A stretch of DNA of 41,316 bases from Candidatus Methylomirabilis sp. (GTDB lineage Bacteria; Methylomirabilota; Methylomirabilia; Methylomirabilales; Methylomirabilaceae), in contig NZ_JAQUOY010000006.1 in assembly GCF_028716865.1 (NCBI RefSeq), forward strand, positions 1-41,316, given 5' to 3'. Numbering within the stretch: the stretch's first letter is position 1; each line of letters starts with the position of its first letter. The notes below the pieces were generated by a model that worked only from the letters and a program-made list of their open reading frames with translations, did not search any database and had not been told where the DNA came from. This document shows, one piece after another, positions 1-31,771 of the stretch. Made by a program: the position numbers and the translations under genes.

Positions 1-2447
1 CCCTCATTAACCCAGTGGGCTTCAAACGATTCGATCAGATCTTCAAGCGACATTATCTGCCCGGCAAGGCGTTGAGTATTATACGCCTGAACGGCCCGAT
101 GCAGCGCGGCGCCATAGATGATCGTATGCTCCCTGAGCACAGGTACCCGCAGGATATGGACGTACTTGTACTTCAACGGGCAGGTCAGATAGTCGTCGAT
201 CTGATAGTGGGAGAGGCTGAGCGGGGTGTCGGCCCGGATCGCAAGATCAATGACGACTTGGGGCGGCGGCGCGTATCGACCGATGACCGCCTCTGCCGTC
301 CCGCGCCAGGGCTGCTCCTCTTCTTCTTTCGGCAGCGCCAGCGCCTCAGCCAGGAACCGGCTGCGCTTCCACTCCCGCTTTGTTCCGTAATCCTTCGCCC
401 GCGTGAGGAACAGGTACCTCTTGGCCCGAGTCATGCCGACATAAAATAGGCGTCGCTCCTCCTGCTGGTGAAAGTCGCCGGACGGCAACGTCTCTTTGAT
501 CAGCTCATCGGGAAGTGGGATCGCCTCTCGCCGATCGATCGAGGGGAACCGCTTCTCGACCAGGCCCACGAGAAAGACTGCTTCGAATTCGAGACCCTTG
601 GCCTTGTGCAGCGTCAGAACGGCTACTCCTTCCTCTGCTGCCTCGCCCTCCGCGACGGGCGGGTTCTCGCCTGCCTCGATCAGCATCGTCAGATACGGGA
701 CAAAGCCGACCACGCGGTCCTGGGGCGCCACCTCGCCGAATCGCTGAACCAGGCCAAAGAATGCGGCGAGGTTGCTGACCCGCTGATGATCGCGTGAGGA
801 ATTCGAATGCAGCAGTCGCTTGCCGTAGCCAGGCTGTTCCATCAGGAACTCATACAGGATACGTCCCGTTACCTCCCGAGCCGCTTTGTCCAGATAACGA
901 TGCAGGTCGCTCAGGAGGGCCGTGGCAGCAGCGATCCCTTCAGTCGAGACCCCGGAAAGCTCCGGTACGGCATCCGGCCGCCTCGTCAGATCGAGCAACA
1001 CCTCATAGAGACTGCGATGCTTCCGGCGCGCGTGGGCGTTGCAGAGGGTCAGGTCGGCAGCCGGCATCCCGTAGATATCGGAACCAGCCAAATGAAAGAG
1101 ACTCAGGGAGTCGTATGGGTCGGCAAGGAGGCGAAGGAACGAGATCACCAGACGTATCTCATCCCTGTCGTACAGACCCTTCGCCCCGCTGAAGCTCCAG
1201 GGGATTCCCTTCATGTTCAGCGCCCGGAGCAATGGGTCGGCATCGCTGTTTCGCCGAACCAGAATGGCGATATCGCTCAGCGCGCACGCCTTCGCCTCGA
1301 TCAGCTCCTCGATCTTTCCGGCTGCCCAGTCGGCCTCTTCCTGATAGGTCTGAAAGACCACGCTCTCAACGGCCGGGCCGTCACCATTGCAAGACTTCAG
1401 GCGCTTGTCGACGCCTTCCTGGTATTCCAGGCGGTCAGGGTTGTTGTGCTGGATCAGACGGTACGCGGCATCAAGGACGCTCGGCGTCGAGCGATAGTTC
1501 TCCGCCAGGACGACCGTCTCCGTCTCAGGGAACTCCCGGCGGAAGCTGAGGATGTTACTGATCGAGGCGCCTCGAAATTTGAAGATCGACTGGTCGTCAT
1601 CCCCCACCACCGTCACATTCCGATGGGAGGCCGTCAGCAGCTTCACAATCTGAAACTGGGCGTAGTTGGTATCCTGGAACTCATCGACCAGGATATACCG
1701 GAACCGCTCCTGTAACCGTTGCAGCACCAGCGGATGTTCCCGAAGTAAGTTGAGTGTCTGCGTCATCAGGTCGCCGAAATCCAACTTCCCTTCCCGCGCC
1801 ATCAGCTCCTGGTAGTGCCGGTAGGTCCTGGCGATCTCCGCCTCGCGCTTCGCCTGCTCCGCCAGCGCCTTATCATCGGAAGAGGCCGCTGCTCGACCTG
1901 CCAGCTCTTCCGCATAACTCGCATACTGCTCGGGGCCGACATCCTCGTCCTTGGCTCGACTGAACAGTTGGAGCAGCGCCTGCACATGCCGCAGCGGACT
2001 GCCGAGCGGCCGGAAATAGTCCAGTGGAAGCTCGAACAGATGCTCCTGAACGAAGATGACCTGCTCCGGCACCGTAAGCAGGCGGAAGTCCGGACTCAAG
2101 CCCAACACCAGGGCATGCTCCCGAAGCACGCGGTCTCCAAAGGCATGGAAGGTGGAGATCCAGGTATCGGTGAACCCGTATGGGACCAGCAGGTCCACAC
2201 GCCGCTCCATCTCCGCCGCCGCTTTCTCAGTGAAGGTCAGCGCCAGCACCTGCTCCGGCCTGGCTCGCCTGCTGTTGATCAGGTGGGCGATCCGGTGAGC
2301 GATCACCGTGGTCTTCCCCGTCCCGGCGCCCGCAATGATGAGCAAAGGGCCATCGCCGTGGATGACCGCCGCCTGCTGCGCCGCATTCAGGCCCCCCTGG
2401 ACCTTTTCGCCGGCACGGAATGAAACGACCGGGTCTTGTTCCAACAT
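1..2447 (-). CDS. UvrD/PcrA-like superfamily 1 DNA helicase with C-terminal PD-(D/E)XK-like domain (3' end outside window)
   Basis: ATP-dependent 3'-5' DNA helicase of the UvrD/PcrA/Rep group, expected to act in repair and in clearing proteins from DNA. The frame is open from the ATG at 2447 to the window edge (815 codons). Visible motifs are Walker A GAGTGKT at residues 40-46, motif II DEFQDT from residue 255, the GDDDQSI motif about residue 280, the LTLHKAKGLEFE motif and EERRLFYVGMTRAK about residue 660. Past that, the chain continues into a region with CPLKYKY and GAALHRAV, typical of the C-terminal PD-(D/E)XK nuclease-like domain found in AddB and some UvrD fusions; its catalytic residues are not all inside the window. 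The start is chosen because a G-rich Shine-Dalgarno-like stretch precedes it and the helicase N-terminus LNAAQQAAV follows directly. Helicase identity is certain; the nuclease-like tail is an inference. Confidence 0.93.
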   Translation of the reverse strand, partial: MLEQDPVVSFRAGEKVQGGLNAAQQAAVIHGDGPLLIIAGAGTGKTTVIAHRIAHLINSRRARPEQVLALTFTEKAAAEMERRVDLLVPYGFTDTWISTFHAFGDRVLREHALVLGLSPDFRLLTVPEQVIFVQEHLFELPLDYFRPLGSPLRHVQALLQLFSRAKDEDVGPEQYASYAEELAGRAAASSDDKALAEQAKREAEIARTYRHYQELMAREGKLDFGDLMTQTLNLLREHPLVLQRLQERFRYILVDEFQDTNYAQFQIVKLLTASHRNVTVVGDDDQSIFKFRGASISNILSFRREFPETETVVLAENYRSTPSVLDAAYRLIQHNNPDRLEYQEGVDKRLKSCNGDGPAVESVVFQTYQEEADWAAGKIEELIEAKACALSDIAILVRRNSDADPLLRALNMKGIPWSFSGAKGLYDRDEIRLVISFLRLLADPYDSLSLFHLAGSDIYGMPAADLTLCNAHARRKHRSLYEVLLDLTRRPDAVPELSGVSTEGIAAATALLSDLHRYLDKAAREVTGRILYEFLMEQPGYGKRLLHSNSSRDHQRVSNLAAFFGLVQRFGEVAPQDRVVGFVPYLTMLIEAGENPPVAEGEAAEEGVAVLTLHKAKGLEFEAVFLVGLVEKRFPSIDRREAIPLPDELIKETLPSGDFHQQEERRLFYVGMTRAKRYLFLTRAKDYGTKREWKRSRFLAEALALPKEEEEQPWRGTAEAVIGRYAPPPQVVIDLAIRADTPLSLSHYQIDDYLTCPLKYKYVHILRVPVLREHTIIYGAALHRAVQAYNTQRLAGQIMSLEDLIESFEAHWVNE

Positions 2448-2483
2448 CGATTCTCAGCCCCCTCTGAACGACTCGTATAACCA

Positions 2484-2498
2484 ATAATATCGTATTAT
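2484..2498. promoter_or_regulatory. AT-rich inverted repeat upstream of the helicase gene
   Basis: Perfect 6-bp arms ATAATA and TATTAT separated by 3 nt, 37 bp upstream of the helicase start, in an otherwise GC-rich gap. It lies where a promoter would be expected, but no convincing -35/-10 pair can be assigned. The rest of the 249-bp gap up to 2696 shows nothing I recognise. Confidence 0.3.
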
Positions 2499-2696
2499 CA
2501 TAACATGCTCACTCCTGGCCGACCACAGTCACACTTTGCCCAAATGGCTCACAGAAGAACAGATGACGAACCCCACCCCGCTCCCAGGGCCTGACCCTAG
2601 CCGCTGTAGTTCGCTCGGGAGGCTATGCCTTTTCCATTACAGGTGTTACCAACGGGAGCCCAGCCCGCAGGCATCGGGAGGGACCTGCACGATGGG

Positions 2697-3899
2697 CTAT
2701 GTTAAGCGGGTCGTTGTGTCCCGTCCCTTAGTCGACTTGCCCCTATGCGGGAACAGGGCATCCATGTCGCCCGTAGCCAGGGCCGCGAGCGGTACCACAT
2801 CCACCCGTTCGGCCAGCGCATACCGTCTTGTACCAGGATATAGAACGGTGAGGTGGTCGAGTTGCAGATCGTGAAGCGCAATGCGCATGGACGGCGTCAG
2901 GGTGGGCGCATCGGCTCGCTTCACCTCCACGCCAAGCCGCCGCCTGTTCTTGAACAGGAGAAGATCCAGTTCGGCGCCGGTATGTGTCGCCCAGAAGTAC
3001 GCCTCGTCCGGCTGCACAGCCTTGAGTGTTTCTTCGATGGCATACCCTTCCCACGATGCACCGCACTTGGGGTGCGCTAATAGGTCCCTTTCCGTCTTGA
3101 TGCCGAGAAGCTGGTGCAGCAGGCCGCTATCCCGTAGATAGACCTTCGGCGCCTTGACCTGGCGCTTCTTGAGGTTTGCATGCCAGGGGTGCAGTTGCCT
3201 CACCATGAACAGCCCCGTCAGCAGATCGAGATAGCGTCTGACGGTCGGTTCGCTGACCCCAAGCGATCTGGCCGGCTCGGCCGCATTCCAGCGCTGACCG
3301 TGGTAATGCGCGAGCATGGTCCAACACCGCCATAACGCGGGCGCGGGGATGGTCACGCCAAGCTGCGGGAGATCCCGCTCAAGAAACGTCTGGATGAATT
3401 GACGTCGCCAAGCCAAACTGTCCGCGTGCGAACGGGCGAGATACGAGCGCGGGAAGCCGCCACGCTGCCAATGACGTGTCAGCGCGTTGACCCCGACCTC
3501 GGCGAGACTGAAGCCTGAAAGCGGGACCGTCTCGAGCCTCCCCGCAAGCGATTCTGAAGATTGACGAAGCAGCACGGGTGAGGCGCTGCCGAGAATAAGA
3601 AATCTGACGGGCAGCGGCCTCCGGTCGGCCAGCACCCGCAGGACCGGAAAGAGATCCGGCCGACGCTGCACCTCGTCAATCACCACCACCCCGCGCAGAT
3701 CTGCCAGCGCGGTGATCGGCTCAGCCAGACGCGCAAGGCTTGCCGGGTCTTCGAGGTCGAAATAGTTGAGCGAATCCGAAGGAACGATCTGCCGGGCAAG
3801 CGTGGTCTTCCCGCACTGGCGCGGCCCGATAAGCGAGACCACGCGGCTGCGCGACAGGGCGCGCCGGACCTGCGAGAGGATGTGAGACCGTTGGACCAT
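2697..3899 (-). CDS. AAA+ ATPase with C-terminal DUF4143 domain
   Basis: A 400-residue protein of the AAA_14/DUF4143 family, widespread and often accessory ATPases of unknown cellular role. Walker A is GPRQCGKT at residues 25-32 and Walker B VVVIDEVQ starts at 71. A sensor-like LILGSAS segment follows, then the LSGFSLAEV stretch and the DUF4143 half, which includes a winged-helix-like region (SLGVSEPTVRRYLDLL) and a PD-(D/E)XK-like core with GAELDLLLF and GVEVKRAD. The ATG at 3899 follows a TATAGT box by only 6 nt and has no Shine-Dalgarno sequence, suggesting a leaderless mRNA. It stands alone, divergent from the gene at 4175. The family is clear; the function is unknown. Such genes are often compared with toxin-antitoxin or defence loci, but nothing here proves that. 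Confidence 0.9.
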   Translation of the reverse strand: MVQRSHILSQVRRALSRSRVVSLIGPRQCGKTTLARQIVPSDSLNYFDLEDPASLARLAEPITALADLRGVVVIDEVQRRPDLFPVLRVLADRRPLPVRFLILGSASPVLLRQSSESLAGRLETVPLSGFSLAEVGVNALTRHWQRGGFPRSYLARSHADSLAWRRQFIQTFLERDLPQLGVTIPAPALWRCWTMLAHYHGQRWNAAEPARSLGVSEPTVRRYLDLLTGLFMVRQLHPWHANLKKRQVKAPKVYLRDSGLLHQLLGIKTERDLLAHPKCGASWEGYAIEETLKAVQPDEAYFWATHTGAELDLLLFKNRRRLGVEVKRADAPTLTPSMRIALHDLQLDHLTVLYPGTRRYALAERVDVVPLAALATGDMDALFPHRGKSTKGRDTTTRLT

Positions 3900-3905
3900 A
3901 GAAGA

Positions 3906-3952
3906 ACTATACCATGAAAATCAAATACCAGGTATTCCTTTTTCATGGTATA
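3906..3952 (-). promoter_or_regulatory. Nested palindromic operator/promoter of the AAA+/DUF4143 gene
   Basis: Outer 13-bp perfect arms lie at 3908-3920 and 3940-3952; between them is a second perfect inverted repeat AATACC-A-GGTATT at 3924-3936. The core ATACC/GGTAT thus occurs four times in 45 bp. A -10-like TATAGT (complement 3906-3911) overlaps the proximal arm and ends 6 nt before the start codon. The arrangement suggests autoregulation by a dimeric or tetrameric DNA-binding protein, possibly the ATPase itself through its winged-helix-like region. Confidence 0.5.
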
Positions 3953-3977
3953 CCAGACGGCTTACGCAGGCCGATTG

Positions 3978-3999
3978 CCCGCGGCTTACCGCGGGGTAG
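3978..3999. repeat. REP-like GC hairpin with GTAG flank
   Basis: Perfect 7-bp arms CCCGCGG and CCGCGGG with a CTTA loop, followed immediately by GTAG. It lies between two divergent genes and has no T-run, so a terminator is unlikely. A short GC-rich palindrome next to GTAG resembles REP elements mobilised by REP-associated transposases. Only one copy of this exact type is in the window. Confidence 0.4.
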
Positions 4000-4174
4000 T
4001 TCACTGTCGGAAGCCTTGGTAGGCTGACACAGGTGCAGCGTTTGCCGTCGTCCGCCTTCAGACAAATGTCTTGTTAAGTACCAGAAAAGGCTATAGAGTT
4101 TTGGCCAGCTTCAAGAATGGCTGGTCGAGAGACTGATCAGCTTACATAATTAGGCGGGTCTCTGGAAGGGATAT

Positions 4175-4924
4175 ATGGTTCAGAACAGAATGGTCGCCGT
4201 TTGCGACATCCTCGGTTTTTCCGACATGGTCAATACCCATCCCCTACAAGAGGTAATCGACAATTCTCTGGGTTACCTGAGTAAGGCCATCTACCATTCT
4301 ATGAAGCAGGAAGAGTTTCCTAATTCTGCTCCTATATTGGATCAGTTTCAGAACCAGCGGCAAATCGGCTTTGCTTGGTTTTCCGATACTGTACTCTTGT
4401 ACGCGTTTGACGACGAGGACCACACAAACGAAAATCTAGTGGAGACAGCTGCTTGGCTCTTGTTCGAGACGATGGTTTGGGACTGGTCCAGGTTACGAGT
4501 AGGTGTGGCATACGGAGAGTTTCTCGCCGACGAGAAAGCCGGAATATACGTCGGCAAGGCAATGATCGATGCTTATCGACTGCAGTGCAACCAGGATTGG
4601 TCGGGTGGAGCACTCACCCCTTCGGCTGCCAATCGCCTGGGTGTCTCGCACCTCTCACCGGAGCAGACTCTTCATTTTCTCGTCAATTACCCGGTTCCGC
4701 TGAAATCAGAACCTATTTCGCCGCTATCCGTAGCCGTTGACTGGACATTTGGACTGCACGACTTTCTTCCAATGCCGTGGTCTTCCCAATCGCCTGAACC
4801 GTCCGCAGGGGAGCTGCAACGACAACCTTCGGTGGTACGTAAATGGCGAAACACGAAAAAGTTTCACGAGACAGTATGTAAGAGCTGCCATCGTGAAGGA
4901 ATGCGGTCTGAGAATGCCAAATGA
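4175..4924 (+). CDS. Class III nucleotide-cyclase-like protein (degenerate)
   Basis: A 249-residue soluble protein whose layout follows the class III adenylate/guanylate cyclase fold. CDILGFSDMV at residues 10-19 matches the first metal-binding strand (Asp11), WFSDTVLLY at 68-76 the second (Asp71), and RVGVAYGEF followed by YVGKAMIDAYRL at 125-136 the dimer-contact region. Both metal-binding Asp positions are kept and an Arg is found at 135, but by my alignment the transition-state Asn is replaced by Ile131, so nucleotide specificity or activity may differ. The C-terminus has a CKSC pair. A strong GGAAGGGAT ribosome-binding site precedes the ATG. It heads a small plus-strand group upstream of the attC-like site. 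A signalling or anti-phage cyclase such as a Pycsar-type enzyme is possible; an inactive fold relative is equally possible. Confidence 0.65.
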   Translation: MVQNRMVAVCDILGFSDMVNTHPLQEVIDNSLGYLSKAIYHSMKQEEFPNSAPILDQFQNQRQIGFAWFSDTVLLYAFDDEDHTNENLVETAAWLLFETMVWDWSRLRVGVAYGEFLADEKAGIYVGKAMIDAYRLQCNQDWSGGALTPSAANRLGVSHLSPEQTLHFLVNYPVPLKSEPISPLSVAVDWTFGLHDFLPMPWSSQSPEPSAGELQRQPSVVRKWRNTKKFHETVCKSCHREGMRSENAK

Positions 4925-5021
4925 TCCTGATTATCCCGGCGTTTTAGTCACCCTCGTAGGCATAGATATCGGCCCTTGGCTGGGGAGCGGAGCGTCACCA
5001 GTGACAACACTGACTCGTTGA
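4914..5021 (+). CDS. Possible 35-residue ORF coupling its two neighbours
   Basis: Starts at an ATG 11 nt before the end of the cyclase-like gene (overlap ATGCCAAATGA) and stops 3 nt before the ATG at 5025. The overlap and short gap look like translational coupling, but the peptide (MPNDPDYPGVLVTLVGID...) has no recognised domain. It could also be the frame-shifted remnant of a longer C-terminus of the cyclase-like protein. Confidence 0.2.
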   Translation: MPNDPDYPGVLVTLVGIDIGPWLGSGASPVTTLTR

Positions 5022-5024
5022 GTA

Positions 5025-5540
5025 ATGACAGGAATCGAAGATATGCGGCATGAGGTCGTGATCCCGAAGGGTCTAGACGAAAAGAGAATACGTGAATGGG
5101 CTGAACAGCAGAACTTCGCCGGTGTTCCTTTGGGGCTCATTTGTGAACTCCTTCTCGGGCTCGATCCGGAGATCTACACGACGAACGAGCGAATAAGTGC
5201 TAGTCGAGCAGAGGGAAGTCTTTTCGGCGCAATGGTCGAGAGGAATATTCTCGGGAAACAGCTGGAAGCGCGAAAGCTGACGCCCGAAGCGATCAGGATG
5301 TACGAGCAGAACGTGTCCGATTGGTTCATCGGTGACTTTCCTTACCGCCGGTTGCGCGTGATCTACGCAAGAGGAGGACGTCAGGATCTTGCGCTCAGGG
5401 TATATCAGTCCCGAGCAGAGAGTCTGAGAACCTTCTCGGCCATGGGGAAATCGGGGCAGTGGGAACGAGCCATATCAGAGGCAGAAGCGTGGATAGCCAA
5501 GCTGGCAGTCGCAGGAGAACGACGCCAAGATCACCTCTAA
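5025..5540 (+). CDS. Hypothetical protein with helical-repeat-like C-terminus
   Basis: I do not recognise a named family. The 171-residue protein is soluble, with no signal peptide or membrane segment. Its second half, from about residue 90 (AIRMYEQNVSDWFIGDFPYRRLRVIYARGG), resembles TPR-like helical hairpins seen at the end of several uncharacterised proteins. A second ATG at 5043, behind AGGAATCGAAG, is an equally good start and would remove six residues. It lies 100 bp after the cyclase-like gene on the same strand, and 115 bp before the attC-like site, which is where the gene of an integron cassette would sit. A functional link with the cyclase-like protein is plausible from position only. 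Confidence 0.65.
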   Translation: MTGIEDMRHEVVIPKGLDEKRIREWAEQQNFAGVPLGLICELLLGLDPEIYTTNERISASRAEGSLFGAMVERNILGKQLEARKLTPEAIRMYEQNVSDWFIGDFPYRRLRVIYARGGRQDLALRVYQSRAESLRTFSAMGKSGQWERAISEAEAWIAKLAVAGERRQDHL

Positions 5541-5655
5541 GCGCAAGCCGGCAGTTTCAAGAGCGTGACCCGGGGGCAATTGCTGGCCGCTCATCGGATC
5601 GGAACAGACCAACGATACAGCCAACCCCAACGGCACAGCAGGTGCCACGGGGCAT

Positions 5656-5747
5656 GCCTAACATTCGTTCCAGCGGACCCGCCCTCGCGCTTCTTGCACT
5701 GATCGACTGGTGATGTGGCCGGCGGGCCGCTGAACTTCGCGTTATGC
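5656..5747 (+). other. attC-like integron cassette recombination site
   Basis: A 92-bp imperfect palindrome. The left arm (5656-5683) begins GCCTAAC and the right arm (5721-5747) ends GTTATGC. Reverse-complementing the right arm aligns it with the left over 27 positions, with a single unpaired A in the left arm just before the distal CCCGCC block, and with a mismatched central spacer. That is the architecture of attC: RYYYAAC and GTTRRRY ends (the right end departs at one base), conserved arms, an extrahelical base and a 37-nt variable loop. Its orientation places the hypothetical gene at 5025 as the cassette gene and hicAB as the next insert. No integrase gene lies in the window and I found no convincing second attC after hicB. 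Confidence 0.65.
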
Positions 5748-5771
5748 GACGTAACAGTACGGGGTGAACTG

Positions 5772-5969
5772 GTGCCGCCGAAAGTCAGAGAACTCATTGC
5801 CGACCTTGAGCGCTCGGGGTTCGTCAATCGAGGCGGGCAAGGGAGTCACAGAAACTTTGTTCACCCGAAGGTTGCTAAACCGATTACAATATCCGGGGCG
5901 CCTGGTGACGACGCGAAGCACTATCAAGTCCGCGCCGTGCGGCGGGCCACAGAGGAGTCAAAGTCATGA
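5772..5969 (+). CDS. hicA: HicA toxin (mRNA interferase)
   Basis: A 65-residue HicA-family toxin with a double-stranded-RNA-binding-like fold that cleaves mRNA when free of HicB. The core is KVRELIADLERSGF, then GGQGSHRNFVHP with the catalytic His at residue 26 in the usual GSH context, then the PITISGAPGDD segment. The GTG at 5772 is preferred because GGGGTG lies 7 nt upstream and the protein then begins PPKVRELI as family members do; an upstream in-frame GTG would add 19 residues encoded partly by the attC-like arm. Its stop overlaps the hicB start (ATGA), giving the usual toxin-first order. It begins 24 bp after the attC-like site, which fits a toxin-antitoxin cassette. Confidence 0.85.
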   Translation: MPPKVRELIADLERSGFVNRGGQGSHRNFVHPKVAKPITISGAPGDDAKHYQVRAVRRATEESKS

Positions 5970-6205
5970 AGGAAAGCGCACGATACGCGAAAATCGTTGA
6001 GTGGTCGGAGGAGGATCAGTGCTTCGTCGGAAGTTCACCTGGGCTCATCTACGGTGGATGCCACGGTTCGGATGAAAAGGCAGTCTTCGAGGAGCTGTGC
6101 CAAGTGGTCGAGGAAGCGATTGCGCTCTATCACAAGGATGGCAAGCCTCTTCCTCCGCAGACGTCGGGCCGCGACTTCGCGAACAAGATGCAAAACGTCG
6201 CATAA
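5966..6205 (+). CDS. hicB: HicB antitoxin (short form)
   Basis: A 79-residue HicB-type antitoxin with the partially degraded RNase H-like fold (YAKIVEWSEEDQCFVGSSPGLIYGGCHG, residues 7-34, then EEAIALYHKDGKPLPP). It neutralises HicA by direct binding. The C-terminal HTH or ribbon-helix-helix DNA-binding part of long HicB proteins is absent or very short, so autoregulation by HicB alone is doubtful. The ATG overlaps the hicA stop as ATGA and has AGAGGAG upstream. The following 249-bp gap to glgB holds a possible glgB promoter and a 10-bp palindrome CAGGCGCCTG about 6285, but no gene. Confidence 0.85.
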   Translation: MKESARYAKIVEWSEEDQCFVGSSPGLIYGGCHGSDEKAVFEELCQVVEEAIALYHKDGKPLPPQTSGRDFANKMQNVA

Positions 6206-6386
6206 CCCTATCGTCACTGCTTTTACTCTCACGTCTGCGGCAAGCGAATAAGAGCGAGACGCACAACAATTGAGAATGCCCCGGCAGGCGCCTGTCCGCT
6301 TTCCTCGTCAGCCCTCCTCATGTCATGCATCTAACGCTTCCTTGCGTTTATCGTTCACCCTTGCTTGCTTGGGACAGGAACAGCGA

Positions 6387-6454: not shown

Positions 6455-8683
6455 ATGCCTTCCACTCTTGCCGCTGAGGTGATCGAGGCGATCGTCCGGG
6501 GTGCGCACGGTGATCCGTTCGCTGTGCTGGGCCCGCATGAGATGCACGCCGCCCCGGAGCCATGCGTCGTCGTGCGCGCCTTTCTCCCTGATGCCCTGGA
6601 GGCGACGTTCGTCCATCCTGATGGCGTGAGCGAGGACCAACCCATGGAGCTGGTACACCCAGATGGTCTCTTCGAGATCGTCGTTCCGACGCGGGACGTC
6701 CTCTTTCCCTATCGGCTGCGTGTCATGGATCGGCAGGGACAGGGATGCGAGATCGAGGACCCGTACCGTTTTCCCCCGACCTTGAGTGACTATGATCTGT
6801 ACCTGATGGGTGAGGGTAGCCATCTCAGAAACTATGAAAAGTTAGGGGCCCACCTGATGACCCTCAATGGCGTGTCCGGAGTCGGTTTTGCGGTCTGGGC
6901 TCCCAATGCCAAAAGAGTCAGCGTCGTCGGAGACTTCAATAAATGGGACGGCCGTCGCCATCCGATGCGAAACCATCCCGGCAACGGCATATGGGATCTC
7001 TTTATCCCGGGGCTCACAGAGGGCGCGCTGTACAAATTCGAGATCAAGTCGCAATCCGGCGAGCCGCTCGCCCTTAAAGCCGACCCGTTCGCCTTCGCCT
7101 TTGAGCCGCCACCTCGAACCGCTTCGCGCGTGTTCAGCATCGATGCCTACCAGTGGGGAGATACGTCGTGGATGGAAGCGCGAGCGCATCAGAATTGGCT
7201 TGAGCGACCGGTTGCGATCTACGAGGTGCATCCGGGCTCCTGGATGCGGTCGCCTGAGGAAGGGCATAGTTGTCTGACATACCGGGAGTTGGCCCACCGG
7301 CTTGCCGATTATGCGACCGAGATGGGGTACACGCACGTCGAACTACTCCCGATCACGGAGCACCCGTTTTACGGCTCGTGGGGGTATCAAACTATCGGCT
7401 ACTTCGCGCCCACCTGCCGGTATGGCACGCCGACCGACTTCATGTACTTCGTGGATTACCTGCACCAGCGCGGGATCGGCGTGATCCTTGACTGGGTCCC
7501 ATCCCATTTCCCCCGCGACCCGCACGGGTTGGTCTACTTCGACGGAACCTACCTCTATGAGCATGAAGACCCCCGTAAGGGCGAACATCGCGAGTGGGGT
7601 ACGCTCACCTTCAATTACGGCCGAAAGGAAGTGGACAACTTCCTGCTTGGCGATGCACTCTTCTGGCTTGAACGGTATCACCTGGATGGGCTGCGGGTGG
7701 ACGCGGTCGCCTCGATGCTCTACCTGGACTATTCCCGGAAATCCGGGGAGTGGATCCCTAACATCTATGGCGGCAACGAGAATCTGGAGGCGGTCGCCTT
7801 CCTCAGACGCTTTAACGAGCTGGTCTACGAGCACCATCCCGGCGTGATGACCATTGCCGAAGAGTCCACTGCGTGGCCCCAGGTCTCGCGCCCAACCTAC
7901 GTGGGCGGGCTTGGCTTTGGGTTGAAGTGGAACATGGGGTGGATGCATGATATGCTCGAGTACCTGGCGCTCGACCCAATCTATCGAAGCCATCACCACA
8001 ATAACCTGACCTTCGGTCTACTCTACGCCTTCAGCGAGAACTTCGTCCTGCCCCTTTCGCACGATGAGATGGTGCATGGCAAAGGCTCACTGCTCGGAAA
8101 GATGTCGGGCGATGACTGGCAGAAGTTCGCCAACCTGCGCTGCTTCTATGTCTTCATGTATGGGCATCCGGGGAAGAAGCTTCTGTTCATGGGAGGAGAG
8201 TTCGGCCAGTGGCGCGAGTGGGATCACGACCGGAGTCTGGACTGGCACCTGCTCACGGAAGGCCCTTACCATCAAGGGCTACAGAGGTTGGTGCGGGATC
8301 TGAACCAGCTTTATCAACGGCTGCCGGCTCTGTACGAGGTCGATTGCGATCCGCACGGATTCGAGTGGATCGACTGCCATGACTGGCAGGGAAGCATCGT
8401 CTCGTTCTTGCGCCGGGCGAAGGACTCAGATGACTTTGTGGTCGTGATTTGCAACTTTACCCCCGTCCCCAGACACGACTATCGGATCGGCGTGCCGACC
8501 GGGGGCTACTATGCGGAACTGCTGAACTCAGACGGTGCGATCTACGGTGGCAGCAATCTCGGGAATGGTGGGGGCGTTGAGGCAGAGCCGATCCCGGAGC
8601 ATGGACGACCATTCTCACTGCTCCTTACCCTTCCTCCGTTAGCCGGGTTGATCCTCAAGCCCGCTACAGGTGTTGCGCTATGA
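6455..8683 (+). CDS. glgB: 1,4-alpha-glucan branching enzyme (GH13)
   Basis: Cytoplasmic glycogen branching enzyme: cuts an alpha-1,4 chain and re-attaches it by an alpha-1,6 bond. At 742 residues it is full length, with an N-terminal extra carbohydrate-binding module ([14 protein letters not shown] near residue 11), a CBM48 domain ([25 protein letters not shown]), the GH13 barrel and the C-terminal beta domain. The catalytic triad is visible: nucleophile Asp416 in [13 protein letters not shown], acid/base Glu469 in [10 protein letters not shown] and Asp537 in [12 protein letters not shown]. An AGGAGA ribosome-binding site precedes the ATG. The stop overlaps the next start (ATGA), so it is the first gene of a tight operon with the GH57 enzyme and a mechanosensitive channel. 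Confidence 0.97.
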
Positions 8684-30883: not shown

Positions 30884-31771
30884 TTATGCTCGGGGGTGAT
30901 AACGATCGTAAACCGACTTCAGATGCGCCCGGGAGACATGTGTGTAGATCTGCGTCGTAGAAATATCGGCATGGCCCAACATCATCTGGACCGCCCGCAG
31001 GTCGGCACCGCGCTCAAGGAGGTGTGTGGCAAAAGAATGGCGAAGCGTGTGAGGGGTCACTCGTCGGTCGATCCCCGCCGCCGTCGCGTACGCGCGGAGG
31101 AGCTTCCAGAAACCTTGACGCGTCAGCGGCCACCCCCAGCGGTTCAAGAACAGCACAGGAGTTGACCGTCCTCTTTGAAGGTGCGGTCTTGAGTCGGCGA
31201 GATACCGGCGAACAGCCGCCTGGGCATCTCTCCCCAACGGAACCACCCGGTCCTTCCCGCCCTTTCCCTGGCAGCGTACGTAGCCCACTTCCAGGTCCAC
31301 ATCAGACATCTGGAGGGTCACCATCTCCGACACCCGAAGGCCGGCCGCATACAGCAGTTCCAGCATCGCCTTATCACGAAGACCCAGGGGATTACTGGCA
31401 GGCGGCGCCGCCAGCAGCCGTCCCACCTCGTCCTGGCTCAGCACCCCTGGAAGACGCATCCAGGGGCTCGGGGACTCAAGGTGTGCGGTAGGATCCTCTT
31501 TCACATGGCCCTGCGTCAGCAGGTACCGGTACAGACCGCGAAGCGACGACGTGCGGCGCGCGACCGTCCGAGGCTGGAGCCCCTCCTCTCGGAGCGCCAA
31601 GAGCAGACGTGCGACGTGCCCGCGGCCGACCTCCTGAAATGAGCCGACCCCAGCCTGCTTGAAGTAGCCGACTATCCGGCGTAGATCCCTTCCATACGCC
31701 GCCAGGCTGTTCTCTGCCAGCCCCCGCTCGACCGTCAGGAACCTCAAGTACTCCTCGATCAACTGCTCCAT
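30884..31771 (-). CDS. xerD: Tyrosine recombinase XerD
   Basis: Site-specific recombinase of 295 residues that resolves chromosome dimers at dif with XerC. The N-terminal SAM-like core-binding domain covers about residues 1-90. The catalytic residues are Arg146 (AAGLRVSEM), Lys170 or 173 (QGKGGKDR), His241 and Arg244 (HTLRH), His267 (LGHADISTT) and the nucleophile Tyr276 (QIYTHV). The length and the absence of a mobile-element context favour the housekeeping XerC/D role. The start overlaps the end of the GT4 gene by 13 bp, an overlap created by a repeat at the 3' end of that gene. Confidence 0.93.
   Translation of the reverse strand: MEQLIEEYLRFLTVERGLAENSLAAYGRDLRRIVGYFKQAGVGSFQEVGRGHVARLLLALREEGLQPRTVARRTSSLRGLYRYLLTQGHVKEDPTAHLESPSPWMRLPGVLSQDEVGRLLAAPPASNPLGLRDKAMLELLYAAGLRVSEMVTLQMSDVDLEVGYVRCQGKGGKDRVVPLGRDAQAAVRRYLADSRPHLQRGRSTPVLFLNRWGWPLTRQGFWKLLRAYATAAGIDRRVTPHTLRHSFATHLLERGADLRAVQMMLGHADISTTQIYTHVSRAHLKSVYDRYHPRA

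Follow-up and report, generated by a model that had tools for sequence, protein, structure and literature searches.

The window analysed here is a 41,316-nucleotide stretch of Candidatus Methylomirabilis sp. DNA (contig NZ_JAQUOY010000006.1, positions 1 to 41,316). Between a helicase-like gene and glgB it carries an integron attC site, preceded by a decayed attI and followed by a hicAB toxin-antitoxin pair. The attI relic, gene A, gene B, the attC, hicAB and glgB follow one another in this order, all on the plus strand. The features referred to below are:

1–2447, minus strand: UvrD/Rep-type helicase-like gene, the left flank
2697–3899: AAA_14/DUF4143 ATPase, within the helicase–glgB interval
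3994–4157, plus strand: decayed attI
4175–4924, plus strand: gene A, the first cassette gene (open reading frame)
5025–5540, plus strand: gene B, the cassette gene before the attC (open reading frame, 171 aa)
5656–5747, plus strand: attC site
5772–5969, plus strand: hicA toxin gene
5966–6205, plus strand: hicB-like antitoxin gene
6200–6206, plus strand: GCATAAC, the R'' heptamer of hicAB's own attC
6455–8683, plus strand: glgB, the conserved right flank

A preliminary description had picked out the attC from the letters of the DNA, and its arms lie where it placed them, with GCCTAAC (R'') at 5656–5662 and GTTATGC (R') at 5741–5747. Reading from the left, the site consists of R'', an L'' with an extra C and an extra A, a long variable terminal structure, L' and R', with the crossover after G5741. 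The bottom strand folds into a standard attC hairpin, in which the arms form 21 pairs and leave two bases bulged in place of the 27 paired positions and single bulged A first described. The R stem has 6/7 pairs and the L stem 4+5+6 pairs, the latter split in the folded bottom strand by two extrahelical bases 6 nt apart: a T facing the top-strand A in GCGGACCC and a G facing the extra top-strand C in TTCCAG. An unpaired central spacer separates the two stems. These features fit those published for attC sites, which have two to three extrahelical bases on the R''–L'' arm, a conserved G and a T 6–8 nt away, and an unpaired central spacer (PMC2727003). The inverse core sites carry an AAC and a GTT able to pair; R' is one base off the strict GTTRRRY consensus, as are many sites associated with hicAB. 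Since the bulged bases lie in the 5' arm, the orientation is fixed, and it is the one originally proposed: the site closes the cassette on its left, which holds gene B, and the cassette on its right, which holds the HicAB pair, starts with G^TTATGC.

A generic attC scan scored the site at 20.5 and the runner-up in the 41-kb window at 12.5; sequence simulated with matching dinucleotide content contained 3 places at or above 20.5 in 410 Mb (0.007 per Mb). A covariance model (R1) was built from 27 aligned attC sites of relatives with the window excluded and was run on both strands, as the preliminary description had advised. It matched the plus strand of the site with 35.0 bits (E 3.1e-6 in the window; 72/72 positions matched) and the minus strand with 11, the best other place in the window scoring 13.1 bits. 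The attC of the aadA7 cassette (class 1, plasmid pSN254b), a positive control independent of the model, scored 41.8 bits. Score and fold together bear out the identification as an attC. Rfam has no match at the site. The plain folding energy is unexceptional (z −1.4) because of the long loop, a fact that would suit an imperfect palindrome arisen by chance, or a transcription terminator, with no relation to integrons. The evidence for an attC is its architecture, not its folding energy, and both the scarcity of equally good places in simulated sequence and the covariance-model score count against chance; no terminator match was found at the site.

Across the genus, several attC-like places occur per genome, as would also be the case for a dispersed repeat of repetitive extragenic palindrome (REP) or miniature inverted-repeat transposable element (MITE) type that merely resembled attC. 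This genome has 10 covariance-model matches at E≤0.01, congeners with at least 90% completeness have 6 to 20 each, and genomes of a second genus of the same order (g3) have 0 to 5. The sites are alike in architecture and not in sequence: blastn of the whole attC against plasmids, its own genome and relatives returned no true second copy, as expected because such sites are conserved in structure, not sequence. The R and L helices covary strongly in the 27-site alignment (92.8% of cells paired, 99 double changes, 0/500 shuffles as high), and the sites lie downstream of intI, intI stubs or attI in one orientation. Near-identical copies with target duplications were not seen, and a dispersed repeat is hardly credible. 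The preliminary description had named a model score below threshold, together with a genome devoid of related arms, as the outcome that would speak against the site; the 35.0 bits and the 10 genomic matches are the opposite on both counts. Elsewhere in this genome, an integrase-less array (G000:C46, L207) has attC sites at 356, 3143 and 5736, three in 5.4 kb, along with an attI relic at 3780–3948, an IS110-like transposase, a DNA methylase and a second HicA/HicB-like pair.

The cassette to the right of the attC begins with hicA, whose GTG start lies 25 nt past the core. Its product matches HicA_toxin (PF07927, 40.5 bits), retains the conserved His motif GSHRNFVH and weakly matches a solved HicA (5yrz). 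The gene overlapping it encodes a protein of 79 aa that is called HicB-like by its position beside hicA only and has no Pfam, NCBIfam or credible PDB match. This protein is 75–96% identical across many phyla; its relatives occur as 348 matching stretches in GTDB species genomes, with hosts among Betaproteobacteria, other Proteobacteria (up to 96% identical), Nitrospira, Acidobacteria, Deltaproteobacteria, Planctomycetes and Chloroflexi. No relatives were found on plasmids, and two distant ones are on viral contigs. The covariance model finds an attC beginning exactly at the last hicB codon in at least 13 of 73 loci searched, GCA-TAA-C being the R'' heptamer, and 22 of the 68 loci in which hicA was found have a GTTA..C core about 25 nt before it, with unrelated DNA upstream. 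Judged by these comparisons, hicAB is itself a true and widely travelled cassette.

In the window, the flank comes directly after the R'' heptamer, which overlaps the stop codon of hicB; the rest of hicAB's attC is missing, and the window has no covariance-model match at that position. A congener, G001, carries 122–124 bp more after hicB, and the model matches nothing in that stretch either. Upstream of hicA no promoter-like match was detected, which is weak evidence on the earlier suggestion of a promoterless pair. G001 is about 86–91% identical to the window from 5739 through hicAB and glgB, and the similarity starts exactly at the core GTTATGC; everything to the left differs, G001 having another small gene and another attC (GCCCAAC...GTTATGC, 29.3 bits). 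So exact a cassette border is at odds with a chance palindrome or terminator, and its recurrence at the same core in 22 other hicAB loci refutes chance, leaving that explanation a negligible probability. Elsewhere in this genome (G000:C18:53946-54137, L164) there is another hicAB pair from this family, with a HicA 73% identical and no clear attC adjoining.

The preliminary description took the attC for a lone site. The attI of this genus is taken to be the stretch immediately 3' of intI in G013, where that gene is intact; this stretch recurs beside several intI stubs and ends ...CTTAATAG^TTRRRY, after which the sequences diverge. When the window was searched with all such post-intI regions, local and multiple alignment placed a putative decayed attI at 3994–4157, 1.5 kb upstream of the attC and in the same direction, so that the site is not alone. 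Aligned with the region just 3' of the G008 intI stub, the putative attI scores 89, against at most 14 after shuffling and 17 for the runner-up elsewhere in the window; the two are about 75% alike, and the similarity starts a few bases past the stop codon of the G008 integrase. In the core of the relic, ATAAT-TAGGC stands against ATAATAG^TTAGGC in relatives, the crossover triplet having lost its G by deletion; in the longer comparison the window has ACATAAT-TAGGCGG against ACATAATAGTTAGGCGG. Of a complete integron, the attI is therefore represented by a relic with a broken core. The same helicase–glgB interval of G005, a closed congener, holds another attI (score 107, shuffled maximum 17), followed by open reading frames and a 39.2-bit attC that all point towards glgB. 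The presence of an attI in this interval in both genomes indicates that cassettes did not land here at random and that the locus is an old integron platform. Further attI relics are present in this genome beyond the window. In a Nitrospira metagenome-assembled genome (Nitrospira sp. RCB, L251), the hicAB cassette is preceded by CAGTATACTCAATAG^TTAGGC, which is almost identical to the attI-like end behind an intI stub in G006, another member of Methylomirabilota (C27, ~75.1k); the likeness suggests that attI types may be common to different phyla.

The integrase itself is the missing component of a complete integron: the integrase family search found no intact intI above the family cut-off in this genome, which extends to the whole genome the earlier remark that none is nearby. 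Integron integrases above the cut-off occur in 32/95 genomes of the class. No remnant of intI turned up in a search of the sequence preceding the attI relic. The search for intI elsewhere in the genome, proposed in the preliminary description, yielded no intact gene and instead several C-terminal stubs, at G000:C29:3650-3766 (79% identity across 39 residues, Ser in place of the catalytic Tyr), G000:C13:39576-39671 (74% identical, Tyr to His), G000:C28:30976-31047 (containing a stop) and C2 at ~150.1k (decayed). Isolated stubs of this kind (~residues 260–315) are found by the same search in nearly every genome of the genus (loci L308–L327), several of them beginning at residues 264–276, and nearly all inspected stub loci where an attC was found have it downstream on the same strand. 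Some stubs share their upstream sequence across species (G004, G005, G007, G010) and therefore look like inherited relics. In G013 four or more attC sites lie downstream of the intact intI, on its own strand, a reverse layout; no arrays were found on the 5' side of intI in relatives, the attC sites sitting on the 3' side. One intI of G005 (G005:C1:1877066-1877326, L310) has lost ~residues 39–265 with the frame left open, joining the N-terminal 38 residues to the C-terminal 50. A XerC/D-like gene at 30884–31771 of the window is not IntI.

These observations have led us to regard the attC at 5656–5747 and the accompanying relics as, very probably, an integron that lost its integrase, a reverse-layout platform between the helicase-like gene and glgB. 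The attC, the attI relic, the cassette borders, the lack of an intact intI and the loss of the second attC can be read directly in the DNA. Because the attI relic runs in the same direction as the attC, the locus is an integron minus its integrase rather than an isolated site, and the relic status proposed at the outset is borne out. Alternatively, the cassettes might have been inserted singly by a distant integrase at a secondary, attG-type chromosomal site that was never a platform. Insertion at attG is documented by Loot et al. 2024, as that work is cited in PMC12444791, about ten attC sites are scattered in the genome, and the window has no integrase remnant; but the decayed attI in the window, which the first gene follows after 20 nt, and a member of the same attI family in the corresponding G005 interval strongly disfavour this course of events, which we consider improbable. 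Several points do weigh against the platform reading. The window retains no part of intI itself, the attI is assigned by similarity and position, the gap between genes A and B has no detectable attC, the E-values of the covariance model are rough, and the G001 contig ends 226 nt before its attC, so that an attI could not be seen there.

The past activity of this platform, the order of its losses and the function of HicAB we infer as follows. The platform would originally have consisted of the integrase, then attI, then the cassettes, all in the same direction. A working IntI would have recombined the folded bottom strand of attC with attI or another attC at G^TT, thereby inserting and excising cassettes. 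Later, the integrase gene would have been deleted through its stop codon and slightly beyond, the core of attI would have lost its G, and hicAB's own attC would have been lost after the R'' heptamer, leaving the attI relic, gene A, gene B, the attC and hicAB. Without an attC of its own to leave with, hicAB would be fixed in place, and as a toxin-antitoxin pair it would resist loss. The remaining attC, intact in sequence, could still serve an integrase supplied in trans.

Gene A starts about 20 nt past the attI core and belongs to no Pfam or NCBIfam family; within the class, a distant homologue was found in G028 only (tblastn E 5e-10). A frameshift suspected in gene A was dropped, as the homologue aligns in one frame almost to its end. 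Gene B has no homologue in the 94 other class genomes. The covariance model detects no attC between the two, and therefore either the first cassette comprises two genes or one attC has decayed; GTTGAGT at 5015–5021, considered as the left core of a gene B cassette, is unsupported, with no attC model match. The helicase-like gene, whose function was assigned by inspection, is conserved to ~2393 in G003, G004, G005 and G008, and glgB is 84–91% identical in most congeners and 75–82% in the rest. No tRNA was found in the window. The interval between these flanks (window 2394–6370) differs in content from congener to congener and is an accessory-gene hotspot; by inspection, it holds a VapBC-like pair in G004 and BrnTA-like and AbiEi-like genes in G005.

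The locus can be set beside several known systems. As described in PMC4909258, the reverse chromosomal integron of Treponema denticola (Coleman et al. 2004) has an intI pointing towards the array and carries HicAB. The Methylomirabilis locus shares with it the reverse layout, intact in G013, and HicAB cassettes, and differs in its missing integrase, broken attI core, short array and different phylum. CALINs are cassettes with attC sites and without an integrase, thought to be degraded integrons, for which IntegronFinder 2 has a default threshold of two attC sites (PMC9024848). Like them, the locus holds attC cassettes without an integrase; unlike them, it retains an attI relic and a single recognisable attC, below that default, so that the CALIN label of the preliminary description does not apply. 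Scattered CALINs in Xanthomonas, several at conserved chromosomal loci and some in species that lost intI (PMC12444791), resemble the several integrase-less cassette clusters at conserved loci found here, whereas several Methylomirabilota loci also retain intI 3' stubs and attI relics. As in the Vibrio cholerae superintegron, where toxin-antitoxin cassettes are thought to stabilise the array (PMC11023631), a toxin-antitoxin pair serves as an integron cassette; here, in contrast, it belongs to a distinct HicAB family and would be immobilised by the loss of its attC.

What is unusual is the number of integrase-less platform relics that the genus keeps. It is conceivable, though rather doubtful, that Methylomirabilis-type genomes harbour a scattered integron, made up of many small integrase-less platforms whose cassettes would still be exchanged in trans whenever a lineage keeps or reacquires a working IntI. 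A similarly tentative part of this idea is that each such platform would consist of an intI 3' stub and/or an attI with one to three cassettes at a conserved chromosomal place. A 2021 review of integron hosts does not list this phylum (PMC8618304); integrons, their decay and a cassette-borne HicAB family can now be placed in Methylomirabilota. The locus offers a clear case of a toxin-antitoxin cassette turning into a fixed chromosomal gene. With the stubs and attI relics across the genus it should be possible to date the loss of integrons and to test whether platforms are served in trans.
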